This document shows positions 1-13,854 of a DNA stretch of 13,954 nucleotides, in pieces (position 1 is the stretch's first letter; the number at the start of each line of letters is the position of its first letter). The translations under genes and the position numbers were made by a program. Source of the DNA: Nitrospira sp. (GTDB taxonomy: Bacteria; Nitrospirota; Nitrospiria; Nitrospirales; Nitrospiraceae); the NCBI GenBank assembly GCA_015904075.1, contig JABMDH010000073.1, positions 2,231 to 16,184 on the forward strand, read 5' to 3'. A model generated the notes under the pieces. That model was given only the letters and a program-made list of their open reading frames with translations, was not told the origin of the DNA and did no database searches.

Positions 1-590
1 GCCGCCATCTTGTCCCGATTCCCCATCCCGTAGCCGACGGCACAGACACGGATGCCGGCATTGTGGCCGCCGTTGATGTCGTTGGTGCTGTCCCCCACCA
101 GGACAGCCTGATCTTTCGAGATATTCAACTGTTCCATGACATGCAGCAACATGCCCGGTTCCGGCTTGAGCCCGAACCCGTTGTCGCCGCCGACGAGATA
201 CGTGAAATGCTGTGCGCCTAACCCGTTCAAGATGACACGCGTATATTCGATCGACTTGTTGGTGGCGACGGCCTTCTGTTTATACGCGAAATGGCGCAGC
301 ATCGGTTCAATGCCGTGGAAAAAGGTCGTCCGATCCAGACAATGGGCGAGGTAATGGCCGCGGAAAACCTTGAGGGCATCTTCGAAGCTGGTTCGGCCCT
401 CCTCCCCCACTGCGAGACGCAACAACTTCTTCACGCCATCGCCGACAAAACCGAAAATCTCTTCCAACGGGCGTTCCGGCAAACCCAACTCGGCCAAGGT
501 CAAATTCACGGACTTTGCGATATCCCACTTGGACTCGATCAGTGTGCCGTCAAGATCGAAGATGAGCAACTGTACGGACGTCTTCCCCAT
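1..590 (-). CDS. gph: HAD hydrolase, phosphoglycolate phosphatase-like (3' end outside window)
   Basis: Reading the minus strand from ATG 588-590 gives an open frame of 196 codons to the window edge. It carries HAD motif I (LLIFDLDGTLIES, residues 8-20, nucleophile D12 and acid D14), a helical cap region (residues ~20-90), motif III lysine in GLKPEPG, and motif IV VGDSTND near residue 175. This is the layout of the Gph/PGP group, which hydrolyses 2-phosphoglycolate to glycolate in the cytosol; family members are about 215-230 residues, so only the last ~20-30 are missing. The start codon follows the TAA of the upstream exported-protein gene directly (TAAATG), so the two are probably one transcript and translationally coupled. 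HAD substrate specificity cannot be read from motifs alone; another small phosphomonoester is possible. Confidence 0.85.
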   Translation of the reverse strand, partial: MGKTSVQLLIFDLDGTLIESKWDIAKSVNLTLAELGLPERPLEEIFGFVGDGVKKLLRLAVGEEGRTSFEDALKVFRGHYLAHCLDRTTFFHGIEPMLRHFAYKQKAVATNKSIEYTRVILNGLGAQHFTYLVGGDNGFGLKPEPGMLLHVMEQLNISKDQAVLVGDSTNDINGGHNAGIRVCAVGYGMGNRDKMA

Positions 591-1220
591 TTATTTCGCC
601 TTTCGCAAGGAACCCTCAAGCGCCGTCAGGATGCCGCGCTGCGCCGCATCCTGCTCACGGAGCGCAGCTTCGCGCGCAAAGTTCACCATCCGCGGCACTC
701 CGATATGAGGCGGAATCACCGGCTCGACGATACGCCAGTTGTTTCGCACAGCCTTCACATGGAACCGCACTTCTTCCGTCTTCTCCTCAGGCACGAAAAC
801 CGCGGACTTGAAATTGACCGACCCCCGCACCCGAAAGGTGACAGGGATGATGATGTCCAGATTGTCGATGATGGTCCACTGCCGGTAATCCTCCGGCACA
901 ATAGCCTCCTGAATCACCACGACCTGGTCCCACGACGGCTCTTCTTTCCAATCGACATACGGCGCGAGCACGTCGAATCCCATAGCCTCCAGACGGGCGC
1001 CTTTCTGATCCAAGCGCACGTACCGCTTGACGATCTCGGCGGGAGAGCGTTTCAGCGAGCCGCTCTGGGTGAAGCCGGTCTGGGCTTGCCCAATACCGGC
1101 CGTCGCAATCAGGCCGAGGATGACACACACCCCAACGGCATAGCCCGCGAACCTGACGATTGAATTGGTCACATTCCGGCGGGCCGGACCGATATCATGG
1201 GCAAGGCGTAAACTTCGCAC
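591..1220 (-). CDS. Exported/membrane-anchored protein of unknown function
   Basis: 209 codons from GTG 1218-1220. A basic N-terminal stretch is followed by a hydrophobic segment (about residues 21-46) ending AGIGQAQ, which looks like a signal peptide with an AxA-type cleavage site; the rest, about 160 residues, is hydrophilic with alternating beta-like stretches (VVVIQEAIV, LDIIIPVTFRVRG, VRFHVKAV). I recognise no catalytic motif and no family. The start is uncertain: neither GTG 1218-1220 nor the in-frame GTG 1170-1172 (codon 17) has a strong Shine-Dalgarno, and the latter gives a more usual signal-peptide length. The stop TAA touches the ATG of the HAD phosphatase gene, implying co-transcription. 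Likely periplasmic; no link to phosphoglycolate metabolism is evident. Confidence 0.7.
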   Translation of the reverse strand: MRSLRLAHDIGPARRNVTNSIVRFAGYAVGVCVILGLIATAGIGQAQTGFTQSGSLKRSPAEIVKRYVRLDQKGARLEAMGFDVLAPYVDWKEEPSWDQVVVIQEAIVPEDYRQWTIIDNLDIIIPVTFRVRGSVNFKSAVFVPEEKTEEVRFHVKAVRNNWRIVEPVIPPHIGVPRMVNFAREAALREQDAAQRGILTALEGSLRKAK

Positions 1221-1796
1221 GGTGGATAACCCTTTGTTCTCTCTCGTTCAATACGGGAATCTCGGAATGGCCGTATGAAGTGTGTCGCACAGTCGACGGC
1301 GAGTGTCAGCCGAGTCGACGCGTATTCTAGCAAACAGCCACAGAGACATCCAGGCAAGCTTGCGAACTAGCCTGCATGATTCATGAACGCTTCTGCTGCA
1401 ATCGCTGATCCGCTGCTGCGACAAGCTTTCAGTCGACGGGCTCGCCCCTCGGTCCTTCGACGTACTGCACGCGTACGACTCAATACCTCCGGGCTCCGGG
1501 CTCCGCGCGCCGCTCTCGCCACGCGGCTCCTCGATTTCGCGACCACCCGCCATCAATATTACAGGCATACAGATCTCTGTCTATCTGCCACCGGGACACG
1601 CAGGATAGCCACACAGGTGTGTCATCTTTGTGTGCGGGTGAGGCTCACCTGACTAAGCGTTTTAACAGAATTGCAGGCTGCAATGACTGCACAAGAGGCG
1701 AAGATTGCCTGGGGGTCGTCGGAGGCAGGAACGGTCGTTGTGAATACATCGAGGGAGAAGGAAGTCTGCAGAGGAACGGCTGACAATGCCGTCTGC
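1221..1796. other. Gene-free stretch between two minus-strand genes
   Basis: About 576 bp. The open frames here (for example 1248-1568 minus and 1383-1652 plus) have low-complexity Arg/Ser/Pro-rich products without ribosome binding sites and look random. Visible small structures are a 7-bp tandem duplication of CTCCGGG (1487-1505), a GGTGA-GGC-TCACC hairpin near 1638-1651, and the palindrome TTGCAG-G-CTGCAA at 1671-1683. None has a U-tract or other context that would make it a convincing terminator. The promoter of the exported-protein gene should lie near the left end of this stretch, but I cannot point to it. Confidence 0.5.
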
Positions 1797-2021
1797 TTAC
1801 ACGGCTTTCTTCCGTAAGAGCTGCTTCTTCAGACTGGGAGAAGGCTTCCGCCGTTCTTTCTTCTGCTCCAGTACATAGACGCCATCTCTCCATCGAGCCT
1901 GGACCTTGATCTGGTGAGCTTTGCAGATACTGTGCGTCTCACGAAAGTCTTCCAGCGGCGCCTTTTCCCCGATCAATCCGATGTCCCCTTCTCGGCGGCA
2001 CCAGGAACAGATGATTCTCAT
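1797..2021 (-). CDS. Small CxxC (zinc-ribbon-like) protein
   Basis: 74 codons from ATG 2019-2021. An AAGGAG ribosome binding site lies at 2035-2040 (13 nt spacing, slightly long), which favours this ATG over the upstream in-frame start at 2075. The product begins MRIICSWC with a CxxC at residues 5-8 and has a single further Cys in HSICKAH (residues ~31-37), then a strongly basic tail (EQKKERRKP...KKQLLRKK). C-C-C/H spacing suggests a small metal-binding knuckle, and the basic tail suggests nucleic-acid or phosphate contact; both are inference. I recall short proteins of this pattern (CSWC ... E..THGIC..H) as common and unassigned in Nitrospira-like genomes. It lies divergent from hemL, separated by about 240 bp. 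Confidence 0.65.
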   Translation of the reverse strand: MRIICSWCRREGDIGLIGEKAPLEDFRETHSICKAHQIKVQARWRDGVYVLEQKKERRKPSPSLKKQLLRKKAV

Positions 2022-2158
2022 GGCTGACTTGTATCTCCTTGGAGCTTGTCTGGTAAAAGCAAAAATCGCGCCCAAATGAAAATCGCGTGGCGACAGAGAA
2101 CACCTTTGGAAACTGCGGGTTCTGAGACACCGTCCAGACAGTGAGGACAGAGAGACAT
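2018..2158 (-). CDS. Possible 46-aa CxxC micro-ORF upstream of the zinc-ribbon-like gene
   Basis: ATG 2156-2158 opens a 46-codon frame starting MSLCPHC with one more Cys (VLCRHA). Its TGA (2018-2020) overlaps the ATG of the following gene in an ATGA arrangement, which would couple the two. Against it: no Shine-Dalgarno before its ATG, the second half carries no recognisable pattern, and the frame crosses the ribosome binding site of the next gene. It may be a chance ORF. Confidence 0.22.
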   Translation of the reverse strand: MSLCPHCLDGVSEPAVSKGVLCRHAIFIWARFLLLPDKLQGDTSQP

Positions 2159-2264
2159 CTCATGACAGTTTTTTGGCATCAGGTTGGGCAGATGTGAGCA
2201 ACATCGGTTCAGAGCGGGTTTCTTGACCGGTTCTCCTCCTGCGTGATAGGGTGCGCCCCCGGTG

Positions 2265-3548
2265 ATGAAAACAACTCGGTCTGCCAAACTCTTCAGCGAA
2301 GCCCAACAGCTTATTCCCGGCGGTGTGAACAGCCCGGTGCGCGCCTTCCGATCGGTCGGAGGCCAGCCGCGGTTTATTCAACGAGCCAAGGGGTCTCGTC
2401 TCTACGACGTGGACCGAAACGTCTATATCGACTACGTGCTGTCCTGGGGCCCTATGATCCTCGGGCATGCCGCGCCTTCGGTCGTCAACGCCATCAAGAA
2501 AGCAGCGGGTAACGGCACCAGCTACGGCGCCCCGACAGAATTGGAAGTTGCGCTTGCGAAAGAGATTCGCGCAGCCTACCCCTCCATGGAAAAGATCCGC
2601 CTGGTCAGCTCCGGAACCGAAGCGGTCATGAGCGCAATTCGCGTGGCGCGTGGCTTCACCAAACGCGACGGCATTCTCAAATTCGAGGGCTGCTACCATG
2701 GCCACAGCGACTATCTCCTGGCCAAGGCCGGGTCAGGCTTGGCTACACTGGGAATTCCGGATTCACCCGGCGTCCCGGCTGATTTTGCAAAACATACCCT
2801 GACTGCCCCGTATAACGACATTCGCACAGTCCAACAGCTCATCAAAGAACACCGACACACCCTCGCCTGTGTCATCCTTGAACCGATCGTCGGCAACATG
2901 GGCGTGGTGCCTCCGGCGCCGGACTTTCTCGCTGCACTCCGTCGGCTGACAGCCGAGAATGATATCTTGTTGATTTTCGATGAAGTCATCTCAGGGTTTC
3001 GCGTGAATTACGGAGGAGCGCAAGCGCTCTATGGCATCAAGCCGGACCTCACGGTACTGGGCAAAATCATCGGCGGGGGATTACCCGTCGGCGCCTACGG
3101 CGGACGACAAGAGATTATGGATCTCATCGCGCCGGTTGGACCGGTCTACCAAGCCGGCACGTTATCGGGAAATCCGCTGGCCGTGACTGCGGGGCTGGCA
3201 ACACTCAAACAATTGCGGACAAAAGGACTCTACAAGAAACTGGACGCCTCTTCAGCTGCCTTGGCTAAAGGGATCGGCGAGGCTGCCAAGAAAGCGAGCA
3301 TCCCGCTCACACAAACCCGCGTGGGATCGATGCTGACCTCGTTCTTCACGCCTGGCCCTGTTGTGGATTGGAATACTGCCAAGCAATCCGACACAAAGCG
3401 GTACGGTCAGTTCTTTCATCACATGCTGGAACAAGGCGTCTATCTCGCTCCGTCCCAGTTCGAAGCCGCCTTCCTCTCCACCGCCCACATCGCGCAAGAT
3501 ATTGAAAAAACCATCCGCGCCGCGCACGTTGCGTTCAAAGCACTCTAA
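2265..3548 (+). CDS. hemL: Glutamate-1-semialdehyde 2,1-aminomutase
   Basis: 427 codons from ATG 2265-2267 (a GTG lies directly before it at 2262-2264; the ATG is preferred). PLP-dependent class III aminotransferase-fold enzyme that converts glutamate-1-semialdehyde to 5-aminolevulinate, the second step of the C5 route to haem, sirohaem and chlorophyll-type tetrapyrroles, in the cytosol as a dimer. Seen in the sequence: N-terminal [11 protein letters not shown], phosphate-binding [16 protein letters not shown] (~115-130), GCYHGHSD (~142-149), FDEVISGFR (~238-246) and the Schiff-base lysine K267 in [16 protein letters not shown]. Length matches the family (~425-430) and nothing is missing. Upstream there is a TTGACC at 2223-2228 that could be a -35, but the -10 is poor. 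It stands alone, not in an obvious hem operon. Confidence 0.97.
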
Positions 3549-3567
3549 GGACCATCGCTCGTCGTTC

Positions 3568-3583
3568 GTATCTCGTGAGATAC
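3568..3583. repeat. Copy of the TCGTATCTCG-type intergenic repeat, palindromic form
   Basis: GTATCTC-GT-GAGATAC is a 7-bp inverted repeat with a 2-nt spacer, 20 bp after the hemL stop. It is preceded by GTCGTTC, the same string that precedes the repeat core at 4024-4038 and that appears in permuted order at 10187-10210, so these are members of one short repeat family. Confidence 0.55.
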
Positions 3584-3660
3584 AGAATAGACCTATCTAG
3601 ATACAGCACCACCAGCCATGTGAACCACATGCGCCTGGCAAGCCGCTCAAAATGAGTTTA

Positions 3661-3720
3661 TTGCGAGGCCGCAACGCGCGAAACCCCGAATCGTACGTCG
3701 TATCAGTACGTTAAGGGGTT
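3661..3720. terminator. Hairpins between convergent genes (possible bidirectional terminator)
   Basis: Between the ends of hemL (plus) and the small minus-strand gene lie two inverted repeats: TTGCG-AGGC-CGCAA (3661-3674), and a longer hairpin in which AACCCC (3682-3687) pairs with GGGGTT (3715-3720) and, inside a 4x4 internal loop, CGTAC (3692-3696) pairs with GTACG (3706-3710). Position between converging transcripts fits termination on both strands, but neither side has a proper U-tract, so it may work poorly or be something else. Confidence 0.4.
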
Positions 3721-3765
3721 GAGTGACGTGAGAGCAACGCAATGGACCGTTTTCAGCGGACGACG

Positions 3766-3996
3766 CTATTCGTCGTCCTCGTCATCCGCATCCATCGCCT
3801 CCTGCCGCTTCTGTTCTTCCATCGCGTTATGCAGCAGCATGCGGATAAACATCGAATAGAGCGAACCTTTTTCCAAGGTTCCACCGGGAGGAATAGCGAT
3901 TCTCCCCTCCTTAATCATGCGATCCATCCAGGCTTTCTGATCAGGGGCGATCAATACAGGAATCTCGACCAACCCCACCCGTCCCATCATATCCAT
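3766..3996 (-). CDS. Small acidic-tailed protein of unknown function
   Basis: 76 codons from ATG 3994-3996 with a good ribosome binding site GGAGG (4005-4009, 8 nt spacing). The product has a hydrophobic start (MDMMGRVGLVEIPVLI), a helical middle (APDQKAWMDRMIKEGRIAIPPGG, then GSLYSMFIRMLLHNAMEEQKRQEAM) and a very acidic C-terminus (DADDEDDE). No domain is recognised. The Shine-Dalgarno and the biased composition support a real gene. It converges on hemL and its start is flanked by the repeat cluster at 4009-4099, so its promoter must lie in or beyond those repeats. Confidence 0.6.
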   Translation of the reverse strand: MDMMGRVGLVEIPVLIAPDQKAWMDRMIKEGRIAIPPGGTLEKGSLYSMFIRMLLHNAMEEQKRQEAMDADDEDDE

Positions 3997-4008
3997 GTCG
4001 TCATCCTC

Positions 4009-4099
4009 CGTGAAGCGTGAAGCGTCGTTCGTATCTCGCTAGAAAGAACTATCTGAGTTCATCGTGAACGAGATCCGCTTCACGAGCAACGAGATACGA
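4009..4099. repeat. Inverted cluster of TCGTATCTCG / CGTGAAGCG repeats
   Basis: Left arm: CGTGAAGCG at 4009-4017, GTGAAGCG again at 4017-4024, then TCGTATCTCG at 4029-4038. Right arm, reverse complement: CGCTTCACG at 4076-4084 and CGAGATACGA at 4090-4099. The order of the two words is preserved when read inward on each strand, so the unit is about 30 bp and present twice in opposite orientation around a ~35-bp centre. This is a REP/MITE-like foldback arrangement between a minus-strand and a plus-strand gene. Confidence 0.6.
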
Positions 4100-4175
4100 G
4101 CTCCATTGCAGCACGCCATTTTCCTCATTGTCAACCAACCTGATTGTGGCACGGCCTATGCTGACACCAGTGGCC

Positions 4176-4769
4176 ATGAACACCTCACGAATGGCCATCA
4201 TCGCGCTACTGCTCGTCGCCTTCGCCGGAGCCGGTCCGCTGGAGCCTTGGGCACAAGCTGAGCGCCTATCAAAATCCAATCTTGAATCGACCCTGCAACC
4301 TCAATGCGATCTCTGCTGGTATCCGTCGCCGGAGGAGCCCGACTCAAATCGCCTGCCGACCTATAAACAGCAACGTCCCAGGCGTCCGCCGGACAGCCGC
4401 CCTCAACGGTTTCCCAAAGGCCGGTACAAACTGGGACCCAAGCAGAAACCGTCGCGGCTGTCCACGCTCCGAACGCAATCGCTCCGAAACACCAGACTAC
4501 TCAGCACCCTACAAATCTCCGCCATCGATGGGGACACCATTCGTGCCGGGCCAGCCCGCATCAGGCTCCGCGGCATCGACACGCCGGAGTTAAGCGAGCC
4601 GGAAGGCCAGGCAGCCAAGCAACGGCTGGCCGAACTGCTCCGTAACGGCATCGTGCGCATCGTCCCGCGAGGCCGCGATGTCTACGGCCGCCTCATCGCC
4701 GATGTCTTCGTGGAAGGGCAGAATGTGGCGGAGAGGCTGGAGAGTGAAGGATTTGCGAAAACGAAATGA
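4176..4769 (+). CDS. Exported thermonuclease (staphylococcal nuclease family)
   Basis: 197 codons from ATG 4176-4178, chosen because it directly precedes a signal peptide (RMAIIALLLVAFAGAG); the open frame extends to a TTG at 4128. After a ~70-residue Pro/Arg/Lys-rich linker (with CDLC at ~44-47) comes an SNase fold from ~residue 112 to the end: ISAIDGDTI (D120, equivalent of SNase D21), RLRGIDTPE (R130, D135, E138, equivalents of R35, D40, E43) and DVYGR (R172, equivalent of R87). All calcium-binding and catalytic positions are therefore present, so an active Ca2+-dependent phosphodiesterase acting on DNA/RNA in the periplasm or outside is expected. The domain is short at its C-terminus compared with SNase itself, as in many bacterial homologues. 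No strong Shine-Dalgarno is seen. Confidence 0.85.
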   Translation: MNTSRMAIIALLLVAFAGAGPLEPWAQAERLSKSNLESTLQPQCDLCWYPSPEEPDSNRLPTYKQQRPRRPPDSRPQRFPKGRYKLGPKQKPSRLSTLRTQSLRNTRLLSTLQISAIDGDTIRAGPARIRLRGIDTPELSEPEGQAAKQRLAELLRNGIVRIVPRGRDVYGRLIADVFVEGQNVAERLESEGFAKTK

Positions 4770-4793
4770 TTACCAGGTTGACTCCTCAAAACC

Positions 4794-4822
4794 TTGCCTC
4801 ATGATACGAATTTTCGTATAGT
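4794..4822 (+). promoter_or_regulatory. Promoter with embedded operator palindrome for the XRE gene
   Basis: -35 TTGCCT (4794-4799), 17-nt spacer, -10 TATAGT (4817-4822). The perfect inverted repeat ATACGAA-TT-TTCGTAT (4804-4810/4813-4819) fills the spacer and overlaps the -10, the standard position for autorepression by an XRE/HigA-type antitoxin. The gene start is 26 bp downstream of the -10. Confidence 0.55.
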
Positions 4823-4847
4823 TCCACACGGACCCTTGAGAGGCATC

Positions 4848-5140
4848 ATGAAGAAAGTTCGCGCAGGCATCATACGTGGAAACAGCAATGTGTTTCTCGA
4901 TCTCGGCTTCCCCCCACATGAGGCAGCTGTGCTGCTGTTACGTTGTGATATTGCCGAGGCATTACGAAAGTGGACGGCCGTGAGGGACTGACCCAGGCAC
5001 AAGCAGCCAAGCGCCTCAGTGTCGTGCAACCACGCATCTCCGAGATCGCACGCAACAAGGTAGACAAACTCTCGCTCGACTATCTGGTCGGCCTCTGCGC
5101 AAAAGCCGGCGTCTCGGTTACCGTGAAATTGGCCGCGTGA
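4848..5140 (+). pseudogene. XRE/HigA-type antitoxin regulator, frameshifted
   Basis: ATG 4848-4850, preceded by GAGAGG at 4838-4843, opens a frame with the N-terminal hallmark of one HTH_37-like XRE subfamily: RGNSNVFLDLGFPPHEA, then LRCDIAEALRKW. This frame stops at 4989-4991, but the expected helix-turn-helix continues in the -1 frame: GLTQAQAAKRLSVVQPRIS, then DKLSLDYLVGLCAKAGVSVTVKL, ending TGA 5138-5140. One inserted base near 4970-4975 would restore a ~97-residue protein of normal family length. Such proteins are usually the antitoxin of a RelE/HigB-like pair, yet no toxin ORF precedes or follows it. The DNA-binding half is severed from the start codon, so the gene is probably dead, unless the indel is a base-calling error; no classical slippery heptamer is present. 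Confidence 0.7.
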
Positions 5141-5442
5141 TATGGTGGTTCGTAAATATTCTTCAAGGGTATGGAAAGAAATGCGAGGTGGTCCCGCTTC
5201 GACTAGACAAAGGCCAAACCGAACCGGTTATGTCTCGCATGAAGGAAGGTGCCATCGCAGTCACCCTCGATCCGAATGTCGCCTCGGTCTTTAGCTCTTC
5301 CAATGCAGTGAGCACATTCCTAAGATCCGTCATCGCGACGATGTCCAAGCTGGATCGTAAACGAGAGAAAGCTATCCGACAGTTCCATTCTAGTCTTTCC
5401 CCCTCATCGCCGCGCAGAAGAATCGAGAGTGGAAGAACGTAG
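5137..5442 (+). CDS. Small protein of unknown function following the XRE gene
   Basis: 101 codons from GTG 5137-5139, whose GTGA overlaps the XRE stop; a better start may be ATG 5230-5232 (70 codons, MSRMKEG...). The segment AIAVTLDPNVASVFSSSNAVSTFLRSVI resembles the 'I.LDpdVa..F.ss.aVN.aLR.l' pattern of short bacterial proteins often found beside mobile genes; that recollection is from memory and their function is not known to me. The remainder is basic and Ser-rich. No membrane segment or catalytic motif. Confidence 0.45.
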   Translation: MIWWFVNILQGYGKKCEVVPLRLDKGQTEPVMSRMKEGAIAVTLDPNVASVFSSSNAVSTFLRSVIATMSKLDRKREKAIRQFHSSLSPSSPRRRIESGRT

Positions 5443-5567
5443 GCCGTGAAAACACTGGGCTGGCGTGTTGCATAGCCACGCTCACGGAGAATACTGGCGA
5501 GAGTGAGCATTGACAAGTGATTGAGCAGGCGCAAGAATTACGCGCCGACTTGCAGATTGTCGGAGCA

Positions 5568-5576
5568 TGCTATAAC
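5568..5576 (+). promoter_or_regulatory. Extended -10 promoter of the restriction-modification operon
   Basis: TGCTATAAC (TG at 5568-5569, hexamer TATAAC at 5571-5576) is an extended -10 element 36 bp before the endonuclease ATG. A TTGCAG at 5550-5555 is a possible -35, but the 15-nt spacer is short, so recognition would rest mainly on the extended -10. Confidence 0.4.
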
Positions 5577-5612
5577 AGTAAGCACGCTCAATAGGTAGAC
5601 CCCAGTTAGCTG

Positions 5613-6460
5613 ATGACTAATCTCAACTCATATAGGGATTTTACAGAGCGCCTGAAGCTCCTCGTTAATAAGCACCCGATGCTTATCACGACGACCCTGA
5701 GCAATATCTTCACCATGCGCTTAATCGGCAACAAGACTCATGGCGATCTGGCTGAAATTGCTATTGCCGAATTCATAAACCAGTACATGTATGATTTCCG
5801 CTCAGTTCATGTCGGCAAGGACCTTTATCGTGCTAAGTCGCAAGAAGAGGACATCAAGATCATCAACGAAATTACCAAAGCGGAGTTCCCAGTGAGCCTC
5901 AAGGCGTATGGAATGGCCCACTTCAGCTTTCCACAGACAAGACTTCATCAATGTTCCCACGGCTGCAGAAGGTGGGCAAGGAAGTTACCGGCGCCAACAA
6001 ACTGAAGGCAATCTTTGCCGACCCTGCCTTTTCGGCATTCACTACAATCAATGTTCTCCCGCTTATCTACGACGAGAAGGCTCAGCGGTGCAACATCCTG
6101 GTATTCGACAGCAATCGTGCTCGCACTGCTACTGCTCGTATTACACTCGAATCTGCTGGCCGTGGCAGAAAACACCCTGTCTATCGCTTCTATGATACCG
6201 ATGGTGACTACATATGCGAGGGCCGATACGGAGACGCGGCAGCAAACGCTCTTCAGCGCGGACTTTGGACTCACACCAAGAATGGACTGAAGTACTTCGA
6301 TAGCATCACGGGCGGATGGATCGACTACTCTCACAACAAGATACTTGTGGCTCTTTTCTCGCACGCGCTCGTGTCATCTGAGGCAGGCCATGCTTCTGCG
6401 CTAGACAAGGTGAAAGAAGATATCGAATTGCTCAAGAGACGGTCAGGGCTTATGAAATGA
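5613..6460 (+). pseudogene. Type II restriction endonuclease, frameshifted
   Basis: The gene precedes and overlaps (ATGA) a DNA methyltransferase, the typical type II arrangement. Segment one (5613 to ~5911) reads MTNLNSYRDFTERL..., HGDLAEIAIAEFI (~43-55), VHVGKDLYRAK, EEDIKII (~78-84), FPVSLKAYG (92-100). It then runs out of frame; the -1 frame continues GPLQLSTDKTSSMFPRLQKVG and stays open to TGA 6458-6460. One base missing at about 5911-5913 (GGAATGG where GGNAATGG is expected) explains this; the repaired protein would be ~282 residues. Helix acid E48, acidic E79/D80 and the SLK lysine K97 could form a PD-(D/E)xK-like site (inference). The short open product lacks the C-terminal two thirds and should be inactive. 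Recognition sequence unknown. Confidence 0.7.
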
Positions 6461-7591
6461 CAGGGCAACTCGGACTTTTCAAGGATGTAGTTTGTGATGT
6501 GCCCGCAACAGAGGGCATTAAATACGCTGGTTCAAAACTGAAATTGCTCCCCGCCATTCTTGATCTAGTGCAGAAGACCGGGGCTAAGACGGTACTAGAC
6601 GGATTTTCCGGTACGACTCGGGTATCCCAAGCTCTCGCAAAACGTGGCTATTCCGTAACTTGTAATGACATCGCGGCATGGTCTGAGGTGTTCGGAACCT
6701 GCTACCTGCTAAACAAAAAGCGACAGAATGAATATCGTGAACTGATTGACCATCTCAACGCAGTTCCCGCAGTAGATGGCTGGTTCACGGAGCATTACGG
6801 GGGGGGACCAGAACGACGGATGTTCAGTACAGAGAGACGGTTTCAAAAAGCCCTGGCAAAGGCACAATACTCGAAAGCTAGATGGCATTCGCGATGAGAT
6901 TGAACGCTTGGCCCTCGGCAAAGTAGACAAAGCCGTGGCGCTTACGAGCCTTATCCTTGCTCTGGATCGCGTTGACAGTACGCTCGGACACTTTGTCTCA
7001 TATCTTAACGATTGGTCTCCGAGATCCTATAACCAACTGCATCTCACTACCCCCAATCTGTCAGTGTATGAGGCGGATCACCAAGTGTGTCGCAGAAACG
7101 TCTTCGACTTGGTCGGTGACATATCAGCGGATCTTGCCTATTTCGATCCGCCCTACGGATCTAATAACGAAAAGATGCCACCTTCGCGGGTGCGCTACGC
7201 TTCCTACTATCACCTATGGACCAGCGTATGCCTCTATGACAAGCCAGAGCTGTTCGGAAAGGTAAATCGCCGCAAGGACACATCCGACACCGTTGCCGCA
7301 TCCGTGTTCGAGGAGTTTCGCAAGAACGCTGAAGGCCGCTTCATGGCTGTCCAAGCAATTGAGCGACTTCTTAGCGCCACAAGGGCGCGGTGGGTGATCC
7401 TGTCCTACAGTTCGGGTGGGCGAGCCACGGCGGATGAGCTCAACCAAGTAGTGAGCTGCAATGGTTACCTACGGGAGGTCATTGAGCTAGACTACAAGAA
7501 GAACGTCATGGCCGGCATGAGATGGACTAACGAGTGGCTGCGAGATGCCGAAGAGCCCAACAAGGAATTCCTGTTCCTCATTGAGAGATAG
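6457..7591 (+). pseudogene. D12-class N6-adenine DNA methyltransferase, frameshifted at an 8-G run
   Basis: Cognate modification enzyme of the R-M pair; its ATG overlaps the endonuclease stop. Frame one (6457-6897) contains motif X KYAGSKLKL (~22-30), motif I VLDGFSGTTRVSQAL (46-60, SAM binding) and NDIAAWSEVFG. After HYGG the reading shifts: the rest lies in the +1 frame through to TAG 7589-7591, with GDQNDG, VQRDGF, KKPWQRHNTRKLDGIRDEI, and motif IV AYFDPPYG (D230 of the repaired protein) followed by RYASYYHLWT. The break falls in GGGGGGGG at 6799-6806; seven G would give one 377-residue enzyme of alpha-class order X-I-TRD-IV. As it stands SAM-binding and catalytic halves are separated. Either a phase-OFF allele, decay, or a homopolymer error. 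Confidence 0.8.
6799..6806 (+). repeat. Homopolymer of eight G inside the methyltransferase gene
   Basis: The tract lies between the motif I half and the target-recognition/catalytic half. In-frame reading needs 7 G (or 7 plus multiples of 3); 8 G shifts the frame. Poly-G tracts of this kind mutate by slipped-strand mispairing in phase-variable R-M systems of other bacteria. Confidence 0.85.
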
Positions 7592-7936
7592 GCAACCCCT
7601 TAACTGGTTGCGTCTGCCGCTCCTTATGAGGGGATGCGTGAAAACCATGAGGTCGTTGCTTGACTTGACACCTCGCACAACCGAGGCACCTGCCAAACGC
7701 CTTCCCCGACTGGCTTGAGTCCCTGAACAATGGACCCTGGAACATTTGTTTGTCACCAACACGTAGGATCTGCACAGATATCGTACTCCGCATCAATCGT
7801 CGCGGATATTTCAGGGTGGTGCTGAGGACATCCACGCACATATCTGCATTCGCACTGCGGCTGTTTGACCTGATTTCGGAGACCATGCTACGGTCCCGCC
7901 CTCTCTATTGAACGCGTAACTGAGGCAAGAGCGCCT
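7592..7936. other. Gene-free stretch between R-M operon and RNase gene
   Basis: About 345 bp. Directly after the methyltransferase stop, GCAACC (7592-7597) pairs with GGTTGC (7606-7611) over an 8-nt loop, a possible terminator stem lacking a U-tract. CCTCG-CACAAC-CGAGG follows near 7671-7686. An open frame on the minus strand (7578-7886) has a CLGCARC string but no start context and I do not accept it. A weak promoter for the RNase gene may end this stretch. Confidence 0.4.
7865..7894 (+). promoter_or_regulatory. Possible promoter of the RNase-inhibitor pair
   Basis: -35-like TTGACC (7865-7870), 18-nt spacer, and TGCTACGGT (TG at 7886-7887, hexamer 7889-7894) as an extended but poor -10. It lies about 43 bp before the TTG start of the RNase gene. 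Confidence 0.25.
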
Positions 7937-8371
7937 TTGCCTACCCCTCGACGACTTCGGGCCCCTGTAGCTCCGTTTATATTTTTGCTCTTCTTGTGCT
8001 GCGCAATCGGCATGGCAGGGGTTCCTTCTGCCATTGCAGCACACCTCGGCGAGAGCCCCTCTCTCGAAACCACGCTCAGCCCCCCGGCAAAGGCAGACGA
8101 TAATACACCGGCCATAACACCTCCGCAGAAAGCCAGAGACCTCCTCACGCTACTGCAGGAACGTAGAGGCGTGCCTCTTCCAGGCTACGTCGGGGGGCGC
8201 GACTTTCAGAACCGGGAACGGCGCTTACCACGAGGCCGCTATCGGGAGTATGATGTAAATCCAAAATTGCGAGGCCGCTCGCGCGATGCCGAGCGGATTG
8301 TGATTGAGCAGCGGACTGGAAAAGCCTATTACACGGGGGATCATTACCGGACGTTTCTTCCCCTCAACTGA
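7937..8371 (+). CDS. Secreted guanyl-specific ribonuclease (barnase / RNase Sa family)
   Basis: 144 codons from TTG 7937-7939; the start is supported by a GAGG at 7922-7925 and because it places a signal peptide (basic RRLR, hydrophobic ~11-30, cleavage near AIAA 32-35) at the N-terminus. A Pro-rich spacer leads to the N1/T1-type RNase domain (~65-143): LPGYVGGRDFQNRE, YREYDV, DAERIVIE, YYTGDHYRTF. Residues equivalent to the RNase Sa catalytic set are all present: E104 (Sa E54), R116 and R120 (R65, R69), H136 (H85). It should cleave RNA 3' of guanosine after export. A barstar-type inhibitor gene starts 25 bp after the stop, as expected for a toxin the cell must survive. Role may be nutrient scavenging or interbacterial toxicity; no delivery domain is attached. 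Confidence 0.9.
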   Translation: MPTPRRLRAPVAPFIFLLFLCCAIGMAGVPSAIAAHLGESPSLETTLSPPAKADDNTPAITPPQKARDLLTLLQERRGVPLPGYVGGRDFQNRERRLPRGRYREYDVNPKLRGRSRDAERIVIEQRTGKAYYTGDHYRTFLPLN

Positions 8372-8396
8372 TTTCAACATTGCGCTGAGCCCGCAT

Positions 8397-8957
8397 ATGG
8401 CCACAAAACAGACCGTACAGACCCATCTTCAACACGCCACCGCCCCCTGGTTATCCCTCCTTGTCACACCTTCAGGGGCAACCGTCACATCCCTGGTCAA
8501 ACCGCCGACGGGATATGCGCTCCGGATCGTTCACGGAAAGAACTGCACCACGCCGACGGGCGTCTTCGAGGAGTTTGCCCGCGCCCTCGAATTTCCCGAC
8601 TACTTTGGACACAATTGGGACGCGCTGGAAGAATGCCTGGCCGATTTGGGATGGCTTCCCGCAAAGGGCTACGTCGTACTCATTACCGAAGCACAATCCG
8701 TCATTCTCGGCGATGACGAGGGATACGAAATCCTGCTGGAGATCCTCAACAACGCGGGTGAGGCCTGGAGCAAGGGGCAAACGGCTGATGAACGGCGCGC
8801 GCCGTTCCACGTGTTCTTTGTGGTTTCTGAGCAGAACAAGTCGAAGCGGAAACATTGGGGACTCAAGGAACTCCCGTCACTCGATCGAAAGACACCGAGT
8901 CCAAAACGGAGCACGACACGTTCGGTCAAACCATCAACACGAAGGAAAACCTCATGA
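8397..8957 (+). CDS. Barstar-family ribonuclease inhibitor
   Basis: 186 codons from ATG 8397-8399 (open frame from 8304 overlaps the RNase gene and is unlikely to be used). Barstar domain spans about residues 45-140: RIVHGKNC, FEEFARALEFPDYFGHNWDALEECLADL, then GYVVLITEAQ and the C-terminal FHVFFVV strand. The FPxYFGxNWDALxECLxDL segment is the family signature; in barstar the acidic residues of this helix (D39 especially) plug the RNase active site. No signal peptide, so it acts in the cytosol on RNase that has not been exported. A basic Ser/Thr/Lys/Arg-rich tail of ~40 residues (KSKRKHWGLKELP ... STRRKTS) and an N-terminal ~40-residue extension are not part of barstar proper. The stop overlaps the next ATG (ATGA). 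Confidence 0.92.
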   Translation: MATKQTVQTHLQHATAPWLSLLVTPSGATVTSLVKPPTGYALRIVHGKNCTTPTGVFEEFARALEFPDYFGHNWDALEECLADLGWLPAKGYVVLITEAQSVILGDDEGYEILLEILNNAGEAWSKGQTADERRAPFHVFFVVSEQNKSKRKHWGLKELPSLDRKTPSPKRSTTRSVKPSTRRKTS

Positions 8958-9034
8958 GTCTCTTTGATCAGCTAGGCCAAGCAGCTGGTGGAATGATGGG
9001 TGGCAGCGGGAAATATAAAACGGGGACATTCTGA
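8954..9034 (+). pseudogene. DUF937/YidB-like gene, truncated by a foldback element
   Basis: ATG 8954-8956 overlaps the barstar stop. The first residues, MSLFDQLGQAAGGMMGGSGKYK, match the Gly/Met-rich N-terminus of DUF937 (YidB-like) proteins, which normally run to 120-150 residues. After ~23 codons the sequence enters the inverted-repeat element at 9020 and the frame ends at TGA 9032-9034 within it. No downstream part of the gene is found past the element, so the 3' portion was deleted, not only interrupted. Confidence 0.55.
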
Positions 9035-9075
9035 ATTTCGCCGCGGGAAGCGGGTACTTTTCAGAATGTCCCCGT
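9020..9075. mobile_element. 56-bp foldback element (REP/MITE-like)
   Basis: Perfect 16-bp inverted repeats: ACGGGGACATTCTGAA at 9020-9035 and its reverse complement at 9060-9075, around a 24-nt centre with an inner stem CCGC (9041-9044)/GCGG (9050-9053). I know GGGGACATTCT-type ends from elements mobilised by REP-associated tyrosine (Y1, IS200-like) transposases; no transposase is encoded here, so this is a remnant or non-autonomous copy. It sits between the truncated DUF937-like gene and the 3' end of the protoglobin gene, where the hairpin could also stop transcripts from both sides. Confidence 0.6.
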
Positions 9076-9093
9076 GAATCGGGTCACGCGCGG

Positions 9094-9693
9094 CTAGAAG
9101 TCGCCAGTTTTCACATAGGGATGGCTCCAGAGTGTGAGCTGGAGCAAGCAGGATTTCACCCACGCATTGTACATCTTGTCGACATCCTCGGCCTTGTGCC
9201 CCTTCTTAGCAAGAAACGGCTTCAAGGTGAACGTCACCGGGAAAATGAGCGCGAACAAATCGCGAAACGGGACGATGGCCGCCGCGGCGGCAGCGCCGTC
9301 GGTCTGATTCTTCTTGGAACGATGGTGGCGGAGGCCGATCTCGTGCTGATAGTCGAGCCACTTCTGATCGTACTCGGCTTTGGCCGTGTCGAGAATCCAC
9401 TGACCGAAACGCTTGCGCACTCCGCCCAGATAGTCACCCAACGGCTTGCCATCGCTCTTGCCGAGGAATGACGCGAGCAGCTGCGGCTGAGAACCAACGA
9501 ACCCGTACCAGACGTCGAGAATCGCTTCGACCTGATCCTTCACCACGTCGTGCGACTGACGCAAAGCCTTGATGTCTTCGTCGCCGAACAACGCACTGTT
9601 CTTCATCAACTCAAATTCGGCGAGCGTCACAGGAGACTTCGCCACAGCAGGAGTCCCTGCCGTATATCCGGGGATGTTTGCACTTCCACTCAT
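9094..9693 (-). CDS. Protoglobin-family haem protein
   Basis: 199 codons from ATG 9691-9693 with AAAGGAA 7 nt upstream (9701-9707). Single protoglobin domain without a signalling partner: helices around LKNSALFGDEDIKALRQSHDV, ILDVWYGFVGSQPQLLASF (distal side W62/Y63), FGQWILDTAKAEYDQKWLDYQHEIGLRHH with the proximal haem ligand most likely H117, and a C-terminal FPVTFTLKPFLAKKGH...WVKSCLLQLTLWS. Length agrees with archaeal and bacterial protoglobins (~190-200). Family members bind O2, CO and NO; the physiological task, perhaps NO or O2 handling, is not shown by the sequence. Cytosolic. It lies 95 bp downstream of the thioesterase gene on the same strand and seems to have its own promoter. Confidence 0.88.
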   Translation of the reverse strand: MSGSANIPGYTAGTPAVAKSPVTLAEFELMKNSALFGDEDIKALRQSHDVVKDQVEAILDVWYGFVGSQPQLLASFLGKSDGKPLGDYLGGVRKRFGQWILDTAKAEYDQKWLDYQHEIGLRHHRSKKNQTDGAAAAAAIVPFRDLFALIFPVTFTLKPFLAKKGHKAEDVDKMYNAWVKSCLLQLTLWSHPYVKTGDF

Positions 9694-9792: not shown

Positions 9793-10187
9793 GAAGGCTG
9801 TGGAGGAGATTGCAGTGCGGCAACCATCGTCTTGTCCAGGCGCTTCACCTTGCCGTTGCCGTCCGTTACAGCGAGCCTGGCCGATCCTTCCACCACCACG
9901 CGCCTGCTGACTTTTTCCGTGACTACATGCGCGAAGGTCACTGACGCGGCTGTCATGTCGGAGAGCACCGTCTCGATGACCAGCGTCTCGCCATAGCGGG
10001 CAGGCGACCGATAATCCGCTTCCGCATGCACGACGACGAAGACCGTTCCCTCATTCATAAGCCCCGCCACCGACAGGCCCCGCTCTTCGAGATACCGTGT
10101 TCGCGCCCGCTCAAAGTATTTCAAGTAATTGGCGTAATAGACGACACCCCCGCAGTCGGTGTCTTCGTAGTAGATGCGGACTTCCAT
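9789..10187 (-). CDS. ybgC: YbgC-type acyl-CoA thioesterase (hotdog fold)
   Basis: 132 codons from ATG 10185-10187. The frame is open to 10223, but residues before this ATG (ESHTLHERRDT) are encoded by an intergenic repeat, and homologues begin at about this point. The signature VRIYYEDTDCGGVVYYANYLKYFERAR (residues 3-29) is the 4HBT/YbgC active-site segment; the acid in DTDxxGVVYYANY is the catalytic Asp. Cytosolic thioesterases of this group hydrolyse short-chain or aromatic acyl-CoAs and in some bacteria act with the Tol-Pal system; no tol genes are adjacent here. Length is normal. The gene starts within the repeat at 10187-10210, which leaves only GAGAT as a weak Shine-Dalgarno, and it is head-to-head with the truncated methyltransferase. 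Confidence 0.88.
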   Translation of the reverse strand: MEVRIYYEDTDCGGVVYYANYLKYFERARTRYLEERGLSVAGLMNEGTVFVVVHAEADYRSPARYGETLVIETVLSDMTAASVTFAHVVTEKVSRRVVVEGSARLAVTDGNGKVKRLDKTMVAALQSPPQPS

Positions 10188-10210
10188 CGTATCTCGTCGT
10201 TCGTGAAGCG
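10187..10210. repeat. Third copy of the TCGTATCTCG / CGTGAAGCG repeat, at a gene junction
   Basis: TCGTATCTCG (10187-10196), TCGTTCGTGAAGCG (10197-10210). The same two words occur at 4009-4038 in the opposite order and, in part, at 3560-3583. Here the repeat touches the thioesterase ATG on one side and the broken 5' end of the methyltransferase on the other. Confidence 0.6.
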
Positions 10211-11026
10211 TATGGCTCTCCACCCGGCAAAAAGGATTTTCTCAAAGCCAAGTCGGATTTTGTACATGAAATGGTGCGTTGGGGTGGGTTAGACAAGCTT
10301 CCTTCCGGCACGACGGTGTTAGATGTGGGCTGCGGCATCGGCGGCAGCAGTCGCATGGTGGCGCGGGAGTATGGCCTTGCGGTCACCGGAATCACCCTCA
10401 GTCCTCAGCAAGTCCGACGTGCTCAAGAATTGACCGCGCCGGAGGTCAATGCCCGCTTTCAGGTCGATGATGCGCTGGCCCTGTCGTTCCCCGATGCCAG
10501 TTTTGATGTGGTCTGGTCGGTCGAGGCAGGACCGCACATGCCGGATAAGGCACAATTTGCTCGAGAGCTCATGCGCGTGCTGAAACCGGGTGGAATTCTG
10601 GTTGTTGCCGATTGGAATCAGCGGGACGATCGCCAGATTCCACTCAATTGGTGGGAACAGCCGGTGATGAGGCAACTGCTGGATCAGTGGGCTCATCCGG
10701 CATTCTCTAGCATTGAAGAGTTTTCAGAATTGCTGGAGGCAACGGGACTGGTGGCGGGTACGGTCACCACAGCGGATTGGACTGCCGAAACCTTGCCTTC
10801 ATGGCTCGATTCCATCTGGCAGGGAATTGTCCGTCCAGCGGGGATTGTCCGGTTCGGCGTGAGCGGGTTGATTAAATCATTACGAGAAGTGCCCACGATT
10901 CTGTTAATGCGTCTGGCATTCGGGGCAGGGCTGTGTCGCTTCGGCATGTTTCGGGCCGTGCATGCCGATGTCCCTACGAGTGAGCGGTTGTCTGCGCAGA
11001 TGGATGACAGGCTAGTACGATCATAA
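10211..11026 (+). CDS. SAM-dependent methyltransferase, tocopherol O-methyltransferase-like, 5'-truncated
   Basis: Homologous reading begins at YGSPPGKKDFLKAKSDFVHEM (from 10211) and runs to TAA 11024-11026. It contains motif I VLDVGCGIGGSSRMVAREYG, then DDALALSFPDASFDVVWSVEAGPHMPDK, and RELMRVLKPGGILVVADW: the UbiE/gamma-tocopherol-methyltransferase type that methylates aromatic rings of prenylated quinones or chromanols. Relatives carry an N-terminal segment with FYD... and HHGYY before YG.PPG; that segment is missing, and upstream lies the repeat and the antisense thioesterase gene. No good start codon exists at the junction; the first usable in-frame ATG is 10271-10273, giving 251 residues with the SAM-binding core intact but without the substrate-side N-terminus. 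An ATG at 10097 is in frame but would encode antisense of ybgC. Probably non-functional or altered. Confidence 0.72.
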   Translation, partial: YGSPPGKKDFLKAKSDFVHEMVRWGGLDKLPSGTTVLDVGCGIGGSSRMVAREYGLAVTGITLSPQQVRRAQELTAPEVNARFQVDDALALSFPDASFDVVWSVEAGPHMPDKAQFARELMRVLKPGGILVVADWNQRDDRQIPLNWWEQPVMRQLLDQWAHPAFSSIEEFSELLEATGLVAGTVTTADWTAETLPSWLDSIWQGIVRPAGIVRFGVSGLIKSLREVPTILLMRLAFGAGLCRFGMFRAVHADVPTSERLSAQMDDRLVRS

Positions 11027-11053
11027 ACATGGAGACGCAGTGAGGAGAGATCT

Positions 11054-11530
11054 ATGAGCCTCTACGACATCGACCTTGTCACGATCGACGGTACGCCGCA
11101 GAAGATGGATGTCTACCGCGGCAAGACGCTGCTCATCGTGAATGTCGCGAGCCAGTGCGGCTACACACCACAGTATGAGGGACTCCAGGCGCTCTACGGA
11201 AAATTCAAAGATCGGAATTTCGTGGTGCTCGGGTTTCCCTGTAACCAGTTCGGACAGCAGGAGCCGGGCGGAGAAGCAGAGATTGAGCAGTTCTGCACCA
11301 GCAAATTCAGTGTCACCTTTCCGATGTTCGCCAAGATCGACGTAAACGGCACGAATGCCCACCCGCTCTACCAATATCTGAAATCAGAGAAGCCCGGGAT
11401 TCTCGGTACCGAGGCGATTAAATGGAACTTCACCAAGTTCCTCGTCGGTTCCGACGGCACGGTCCTGAAACGCTATGCGCCGGGCGATAAGCCGGAGATG
11501 ATCGAGGCCGACCTGGCCACGAAGCTCTAG
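11054..11530 (+). CDS. gpx: Glutathione peroxidase family, probable thioredoxin-dependent 2-Cys type
   Basis: 158 codons from ATG 11054-11056 with GAGGAGAG at 11042-11049. Thioredoxin-fold peroxidase reducing H2O2 and organic hydroperoxides in the cytosol. Catalytic residues are in place: peroxidatic C35 (NVASQCGYTPQY), Q69 (FPCNQFGQQEPG), W124 and N125 (KWNFTKFLV). C81 in EQFCTSKFSVTFP lies where plant and yeast GPx enzymes carry their resolving cysteine, so disulphide exchange with thioredoxin, not glutathione, is the likely reductant (inference from the family). Monomer-type length, without the oligomerisation loop of mammalian GPX1. It follows the methyltransferase by 27 bp and may be co-transcribed with it. 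Confidence 0.95.
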   Translation: MSLYDIDLVTIDGTPQKMDVYRGKTLLIVNVASQCGYTPQYEGLQALYGKFKDRNFVVLGFPCNQFGQQEPGGEAEIEQFCTSKFSVTFPMFAKIDVNGTNAHPLYQYLKSEKPGILGTEAIKWNFTKFLVGSDGTVLKRYAPGDKPEMIEADLATKL

Positions 11531-11734
11531 ACGACCGCGAAATCTCTGCGCGGGGGAGCGTACGTGGGCGGCTGGGAGCGTCGAGAAGCGAAGTCTTTAC
11601 CTGCTCGGAAATTCAGAATATTCCCGTTTATCTTCCTAATGTGCAACAGAATTCATAGCCGCCAATTCAATCAATGGTCCCTTGTATCTCTCGGCATACG
11701 GCATAATACTGCCGCGCATCACGCATTGGGGCCT

Positions 11735-12817
<1,083 letters not shown>

Positions 12818-12858
12818 CTCGCAAGACAGTTGCTGACACTGACGTTCTGGATGGTATA

Positions 12859-13854
12859 TCAGGACGACTTTCTAGATCTGGGTAACGTTAGAATGCTGGA
12901 CTTTCTGAACTCATCGCTGGGGAATACCCGGCCGGTTAACATTGTGTCGAAGATGTGATCGAATACCACGCCGGGCGTCCCCTTGGTTTTACCGGATCGA
13001 AAATAGGAATGCCCTTTGGGCGGGTCGTAAATGGTATTCACCTCATCGCAATCAATGGCGTACACGTTCTTGGGCGTCCGCTCCATATCCTCGGGGCCGG
13101 AATGGCCGAGACGGCGTGAGGCTTCCGCGTTCTTCAGGTTCGAAACTTTGCTCGCCCGCAATGCCAAGTCGTCGGATGCGTAATAGACCACCACATTTCG
13201 TGATGCATGGCTGATCAATTCGCCCGGTTCGCCCTTATGCAGCGATTCATTCAAAATGTCGGCCGCTACGAGAAAAGTGTTCCTGAATAACAGCGGCAAT
13301 CCGTTCGGTTGATCGTATTTCTGCCAATTGCTTAGTGTTTGTCGCAGGACGCGATTGCCCATGGAATGAGCCAGTACGTTGATTCGTTTCAGGCAAGGGT
13401 CGTCTTCGGGATTGAGCTCAGCGGAGCTTCTCCACTCCATGAATTTCTGGAGCATTCGGGCAAACGCGAAGGCACTTTGATCTGCCGACTTTTGATCGTC
13501 CCAGTAGTCTTTCACAATGCCGAGATCGTTGTCGCAGGGCCAGATGATCGGAATCACCAAGACCTCGCCCTCCTTTTGCTTGTTGCAAAGGGACTGGAAT
13601 TCCTGGGCGTTTTCGAAGACCTGTTCCGGAAGATTGGAGAAGCCGTGAATATAGATCAGGACTTGCCGGGAGTTGGATTCCTTAATGGCGGACAGCAGCC
13701 GTTTACTTCCGATTTCTTCGTGCACATCTTTTTTGATGCGGCGACAACAGAAAAAGCCTCGGCTTGAGGCGTTATTCTCAAGATCAAATACAAAGTTGGT
13801 GTTGAGTGCAGGCTCGGTGTTTTTCTTCGGCTGGCGGCTTGTGATAAAGAGCAT
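12859..13854 (-). CDS. Alpha/beta hydrolase (DUF900-like)
   Basis: 331 codons from ATG 13852-13854. N-terminus MLFITSRQPK, then strand-turn VLIYIHGFSN (oxyanion HGF, ~70-72), IPIIWPCDND (~101-110), the nucleophile elbow LAHSMGNRV (S164), a DUF900-like NTFLVAADI (D199 or D228/D229 as candidate acid) and PPKGHSYF (H282) as catalytic His. Members are esterase/lipase-fold enzymes of unknown substrate. No signal peptide. The start codon is only 18 bp from the stop of an IS30 transposase gene, so the natural promoter and ribosome binding site were displaced and expression would depend on the IS; no Shine-Dalgarno is visible. At its other end it finishes 20 bp from the proposed IS110 right end. The C-terminal LTLPRSRKSS may be native or a junction product. 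Confidence 0.8.
   Translation of the reverse strand: MLFITSRQPKKNTEPALNTNFVFDLENNASSRGFFCCRRIKKDVHEEIGSKRLLSAIKESNSRQVLIYIHGFSNLPEQVFENAQEFQSLCNKQKEGEVLVIPIIWPCDNDLGIVKDYWDDQKSADQSAFAFARMLQKFMEWRSSAELNPEDDPCLKRINVLAHSMGNRVLRQTLSNWQKYDQPNGLPLLFRNTFLVAADILNESLHKGEPGELISHASRNVVVYYASDDLALRASKVSNLKNAEASRRLGHSGPEDMERTPKNVYAIDCDEVNTIYDPPKGHSYFRSGKTKGTPGVVFDHIFDTMLTGRVFPSDEFRKSSILTLPRSRKSS

Follow-up and report, generated by a model that had tools for sequence, protein, structure and literature searches.

The Type IIG methyltransferases of Campylobacter and the modH methyltransferases of Helicobacter are switched by poly-G tracts. In a study on Campylobacter, seven or more Gs were used as the cut-off for such tracts, at least eight were reported to mediate switching, and the commonest lengths were 9–10 (PMC6321876). 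Two other kinds of system come close to the locus described here, namely Type II restriction-modification (R-M) systems with a D12-class methyltransferase (PF02086) and solitary methyltransferases whose restriction enzyme has been lost. The window, i.e. the whole stretch of 13,954 nucleotides that was analysed, carries a restriction endonuclease gene (R) followed by a methyltransferase gene (M), and both are frame-broken. The locus is probably an acquired Type II R-M cassette that lies next to a regulator gene on a Nitrospira-like chromosome and is being lost, restriction first.

M (6457–7591, plus strand) encodes a Type II D12-class N6-adenine DNA methyltransferase in two pieces (6457–6897 and 6776–7591). 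According to the list of open reading frames, it starts at 6457 and meets a stop in frame one at 6897, and the remainder is open in another frame up to 7591. Eight Gs are located exactly at 6799–6806 on the plus strand, within Tyr-Gly-Gly codons. The first piece covers profile positions 1–82 of PF02086 (MethyltransfD12) and the second positions 89–191, which places the change of frame at the conserved Gly-Gly between 82 and 89. In an alignment of 18 M relatives with both pieces, the hand-over likewise falls at the Tyr-Gly-Gly encoded by the G run. This run is thus the site of the frame break. With 46.5 and 30.1 bits against a gathering cut-off of 22, both pieces belong to the D12 family (the M relative P0001 scores 75.7 bits), and the PADLOC model MTase_II PDLC03342 matches them at 8.4e-47 and 2.1e-116. 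The first frame contains the VLDGFSGTTRVSQ stretch, which we take to be motif I-like. The codons of the DPPY motif at 7145–7156 (plus strand) lie exclusively in the downstream frame. DPPY and the SAM-binding part are thus separated, and no single open frame in M holds both. Inspection of the open reading frames did not reveal any further stop or frame break inside M besides the one at the G run. On these points the preliminary description of the locus was accurate: it had placed the split of an adenine DNA methyltransferase gene, belonging to an R-M system, precisely at the eight Gs, with the SAM-binding stretch in frame one and DPPY in the other frame.

The proteins related to M are of uniform size, 112 of the 120 listed (6,874 found) having 360–400 residues, most of them 377. 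Among the matches listed, the best full-length relative is 92% identical, and these matches include neither a full-length protein closer than that nor a near-identical M with an open frame or another length. P0001, P0002, P0003 and P0005, which come from metagenome contigs, are 83–92% identical over the query piece. A protein of 227 residues (P0004) is 100% identical to the window M. It starts at the TTG at 6908 and is encoded on a separately listed contig of 1,850 bases, which suggests that this contig also carries a frame-broken M, although this contig and the window may have been assembled from one set of reads.

The G run is the sole homopolymer of at least seven bases in the window. Nevertheless, a G or C run of at least eight bases occurred in 22.5% of 200 windows simulated with a first-order Markov model, and five related genomes contain 60, 24, 56, 58 and 61 overlapping matches to the eight-G pattern on both strands. 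In one of them (G148, 58 matches), 19 of 21 tracts of at least eight Gs lie within stop-free frames of at least 150 codons. This sample comprises 20 regions chosen nearly in positional order, and some of the frames may not be genes. G runs of this length thus appear to be tolerated in G148, without an evident switch signal in the lineage. There is nothing unusual about the G run by itself. It does coincide with the frame break of M, as expected of the place where a single-base slip is likeliest.

Phasevarions are recognized by a simple repeat in the coding region and by conservation of this repeat with variable length among orthologs. The former is present, as eight Gs lie at the frame junction of M. 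The latter was seen in 0 of 99 readable M relatives: at the Gly-Gly site none of these DNA loci, which are at most 75% identical to M, has a G run of seven or more. The longest run at this site is two Gs in 82 loci, three in 7, five in 7 and six in 3. All 99 lie in frames of at least 250 codons. They are those with a readable W..YGG motif among 104 loci, the unread ones being L022, L084, L102, L103 and L104, the last of which is a hemL locus. M relatives of 80–92% identity are known as proteins only, so that the count of G runs applies to relatives of up to 75% identity.

Directly upstream of M lies R (5613–6460, plus strand), a Type II restriction endonuclease gene whose two pieces (5613–6005 and 5951–6460) match the PADLOC model REase_II PDLC03568 at 2.6e-52 and 5.1e-70. 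Its stop overlaps the start of M (ATGA at 6457–6460), and as R adjoins M, the two form the gene pair of a Type II R-M system. The open frame expected for R in such a system is absent owing to a one-base break at about 5912/5913. This break follows KAYG and lies outside any homopolymer, at a point where the relatives continue in one frame, as judged by alignment with 12 full-length relatives and from the sequences of 27 loci. R relatives have 270–290 residues in 104 of the 120 cases listed, and the best full-length one listed is 95% identical. A fragment of 162 residues (P0121) from a contig of 16,184 bases is 99% identical to the R of the window. Both P0004 and P0121 are pieces, as expected if their contigs share the breaks of the window; the contig of P0121, too, may go back to the reads behind the window. 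Seven other R relatives (P0128, P0140, P0142, P0145, P0169, P0171 and P0232) are short proteins of 167–171 residues that begin at the same internal Met, six with MFPRL and one with MSPRL. This suggests that R is frame-broken upstream of that Met in other environmental sequences as well. Searches for solved structures gave no relative of either M or R from which the recognition site could be named, and the predicted model of the R relative P0122 is poor (mean pLDDT 49.8). A search of NCBIfam gave no match above the cut-offs.

The state of both genes was compared across 103 loci (L001–L103). M is intact in 101 of them, a figure biased towards intact M because the loci were collected through M; of the two others, L098 has a match that extends as far as its locus does, and L103 is too remote a relative. 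An R match is found in 40 loci, always on the same strand as M and almost touching it in L029, L030, L037, L067 and L079; the other 63 have none. Among the 29 loci that could be evaluated, R is open in 22 and broken beside an intact M in 7. This set leaves out L094–L097 and L099–L101 (30–32% identity), L032 and L038 (cut by a contig end) as well as L037 and L043, which lie near a contig end with only the rear of R aligned; counting the latter two as broken gives 9 of 31. The open cases comprise 19 found by a script rule plus L034, L064 and L075, in which 248–253 residues align without a stop. The broken ones show a truncation plus frame break (L016), a stop (L031), frame breaks (L045, L067 and L077) and insertions (L046 and L074), though some may be errors, as the relatives are mostly draft metagenome bins. 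In L046 (about 1084–2245) and L074 (about 1260–2465), R is interrupted by about 1.2 kb encoding what by eye is a transposase-like protein, and the adjoining M is intact. Loss of restriction with retention of methylation thus recurs among these relatives, and the window appears to be one step beyond it.

A third frame break affects the next gene upstream of R (4848–5140, plus strand), which encodes a helix-turn-helix regulator or antitoxin-like protein of the HTH_37 type. This break at about 4975 is not in a homopolymer either. It was judged against one relative, L138 (L126 is the same genome), where the ortholog is open at 1902–2249 and matches HTH_37 at 2.1e-16. The region between the regulator and R (5137–5612) contains an open reading frame for 101 residues without a Pfam or PADLOC match, and positions 5496–5598 show a 71% DNA match to 2829–2932 of L131, which is the SNase locus in a different relative. 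Eight further window genes, for HAD, g591, hemL, SNase, RNase, barstar, protoglobin and thioesterase, each give one uninterrupted match to L137 or L138, so that the three one-base breaks are clustered in three adjacent genes. In this comparison the whole query was covered, except for the thioesterase (residues 13–144); the protoglobin gene is complete in L138 and partial in L137. Four genes at 10097–13854 have no ortholog in L137 or L138 and stand outside the comparison. An open IS110-type transposase gene encoding 314 residues (PF01548, PF02371) is located at 11873–12817.

The chromosomal setting appears to be Nitrospira-like. For hemL, the highest identity in a set of 295 genomes from the phylum of a Nitrospirales genome is 89%. 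L137, from the same genus as the best hemL genome, matches the window in pieces with 85–97% DNA identity over 1–4767 and 7894–9501 and has other genes, including an RHH/PIN-type pair, in place of 4768–7893. At 5142–6784 of L137, the place of the R-M genes is taken by this toxin-antitoxin-like RHH/PIN pair and a DUF1398 gene, which marks the interval as a site of gene exchange. Beside the insertion, at 7937–8957, a ribonuclease gene (PF00545) precedes a gene for a barstar-type inhibitor (PF01337); this barnase-barstar-like pair is conserved in L137. The close relative L138 lacks the stretch that carries the cassette (5157–7640, plus strand): positions 5156 and 7641 of the window match its positions 2265 and 2269. 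On the right, this match is limited to 91 bases (7641–7731, 86%), beyond which L138 also lacks 7732–9007. The G+C content is 0.49–0.54 in windows over the R-M cassette, compared with 0.550–0.614 in windows clear of it. Lying in a variable interval, the cassette is accessory.

P0001 was found in 0 of 79 genomes of the G168 genus (E≤1e-60) and P0122 in 0 of 175 genomes of the G168 family (E≤1e-30), both weak negative results, as neither set includes a known carrier. Among the proteins obtained in the searches, P0029 and P0124 do have source names that mention Nitrospira sp. An origin of the R-M genes from a phage or plasmid was rejected, since M has only distant matches (below 60%) in phages (11 records) and plasmids (91 records). 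R relatives were not found in phages and plasmids, and a blastn search with M gave no match in plasmids. Viral contigs contain 23 M relatives, the best with 73% identity, and no exact match to a 21-base stretch beside the G run. In the window there is no RNA family or tRNA that would mark an integration site, and the repeat search of 4700–8000 yielded no more than two short direct and two imperfect inverted repeats.

Apart from the breaks, M and R keep their conserved residues. M departs from its relatives at 1 of 173 columns conserved in at least 95% (median 1 and maximum 7 in 112 relatives), and R at 1 of 152 covered columns of the same conservation (median 1 and maximum 8 in 104 relatives). 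Because conserved residues show no excess of change, the breaks must be recent unless some of them are not real; an old pseudogene was rejected for the same reason. Any decay must be very recent, given the preserved residues and the lack of any further break in M. Preserved columns would be expected just as well of a phase variant in the OFF state or of an error in the sequence.

Recent loss of an acquired cassette accounts for these observations best. In support of this, R is split at a site that is not a homopolymer, the regulator is split relative to its open ortholog in L138, and the breaks are clustered. The stretch is missing in L138 and replaced in L137, its G+C content is lower, and readable relatives do not share the G run. 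In 7 of the 29 relatives that could be evaluated, M is intact and R beside it is broken, and P0004 is itself a piece. A cassette of R then M, with the ATGA overlap, would have been acquired horizontally and inserted beside the regulator gene. R would have been inactivated first by a one-base indel, so that protective methylation was no longer needed. M might then have drifted until a single-base slip became established where slipping is likeliest, in the G run of the Gly-Gly-Asp codons. The expected product is an N-terminal piece of 146 residues, comprising the SAM-binding part without DPPY, and we infer from it and from the split in R that neither methylation nor restriction takes place. If this is true, the window offers a snapshot from the life of a mobile R-M cassette, with insertion beside a regulator, recent breakage of R and subsequent breakage of M.

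A possible, though less likely, explanation is an error of sequencing or assembly. The length of the run would then be miscalled and M intact in the organism, and the breaks in R and the regulator might be errors too. Long G runs are error-prone, and the conserved residues of M and R are otherwise preserved, as an error would leave them. However, two of the three breaks are outside homopolymers. Moreover, eight genes with orthologs are unbroken, and the probability that three breaks fall by chance within 2,276 of 7,462 coding bases is about 0.03. P0004, too, is no more than a downstream piece, which argues against an error unless its contig was built from the same reads.

The preliminary description regarded the eight Gs as a candidate phase-variable R-M switch. 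Reversible slipping of the run would turn M ON and OFF, and with R dead, M would be a solitary, phasevarion-like epigenetic switch. The position of the Gs at the exact frame junction, the good preservation of M and a dead R are all compatible with this model, which we nevertheless consider improbable. The run is not kept in the readable relatives of at most 75% identity, 82 of 99 having two Gs, and in G148 19 of 21 tracts of at least eight Gs lie in open frames. Eight Gs would suffice for switching in Campylobacter and are short relative to the commonest lengths there, and the listed matches contain no alternate-length or open close version of M. As to additional disabling mutations, which the preliminary description had linked to simple decay, M itself is free of them and its partner R is broken, at a non-repeat site, as is the regulator. 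Given the non-conserved run and the broken neighbours, phase variation was rejected as the main reading and counts as a rival. It is doubtful that a Nitrospira-like bacterium here possesses a solitary phase-variable adenine methyltransferase, with restriction lost and methylation switched by the G run. One literature search gave, judging by titles, no report of a phase-variable methyltransferase in Nitrospira, and if the model were correct, it would add a phasevarion-type switch to a lineage for which that search found none. If the loss of an acquired cassette is the right reading, the locus also shows that a G run at a frame break, taken alone, does not establish phase variation; one should first check whether the run is conserved and in what state the partner genes are.

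Production of full-length M from the eight-G gene through transcriptional or ribosomal slippage, for which the homopolymer at the junction and the preserved downstream residues would be suitable, is highly improbable, because no readable relative needs slippage (all 99 loci being open over at least 250 codons), a forward change of frame would be required whereas the backward slip is the common kind, and R, without a run at its break, could not be rescued in this way.

Compared with known systems, the locus resembles Type II R-M systems with a D12-class methyltransferase, sharing the same two families and the order R then M. Among the relatives, 101 of 103 loci (collected through M) have an intact M and 22 of the 29 evaluated an open R, whereas in the window both are frame-broken. 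With the poly-G phase-variable methyltransferases, i.e. Campylobacter Type IIG and Helicobacter modH, it has in common that a single-base change in a G run puts M out of frame. In contrast to these systems, readable relatives do not share the run, its length is near the lower limit of those that switch, the partner genes are broken at non-repeat sites, and length variants do not occur among the matches listed. Finally, the locus is similar to solitary methyltransferases that persist after loss of the restriction enzyme in that R is broken, as in 7 of the 29 relatives evaluated, and it differs from them in that M is broken as well.
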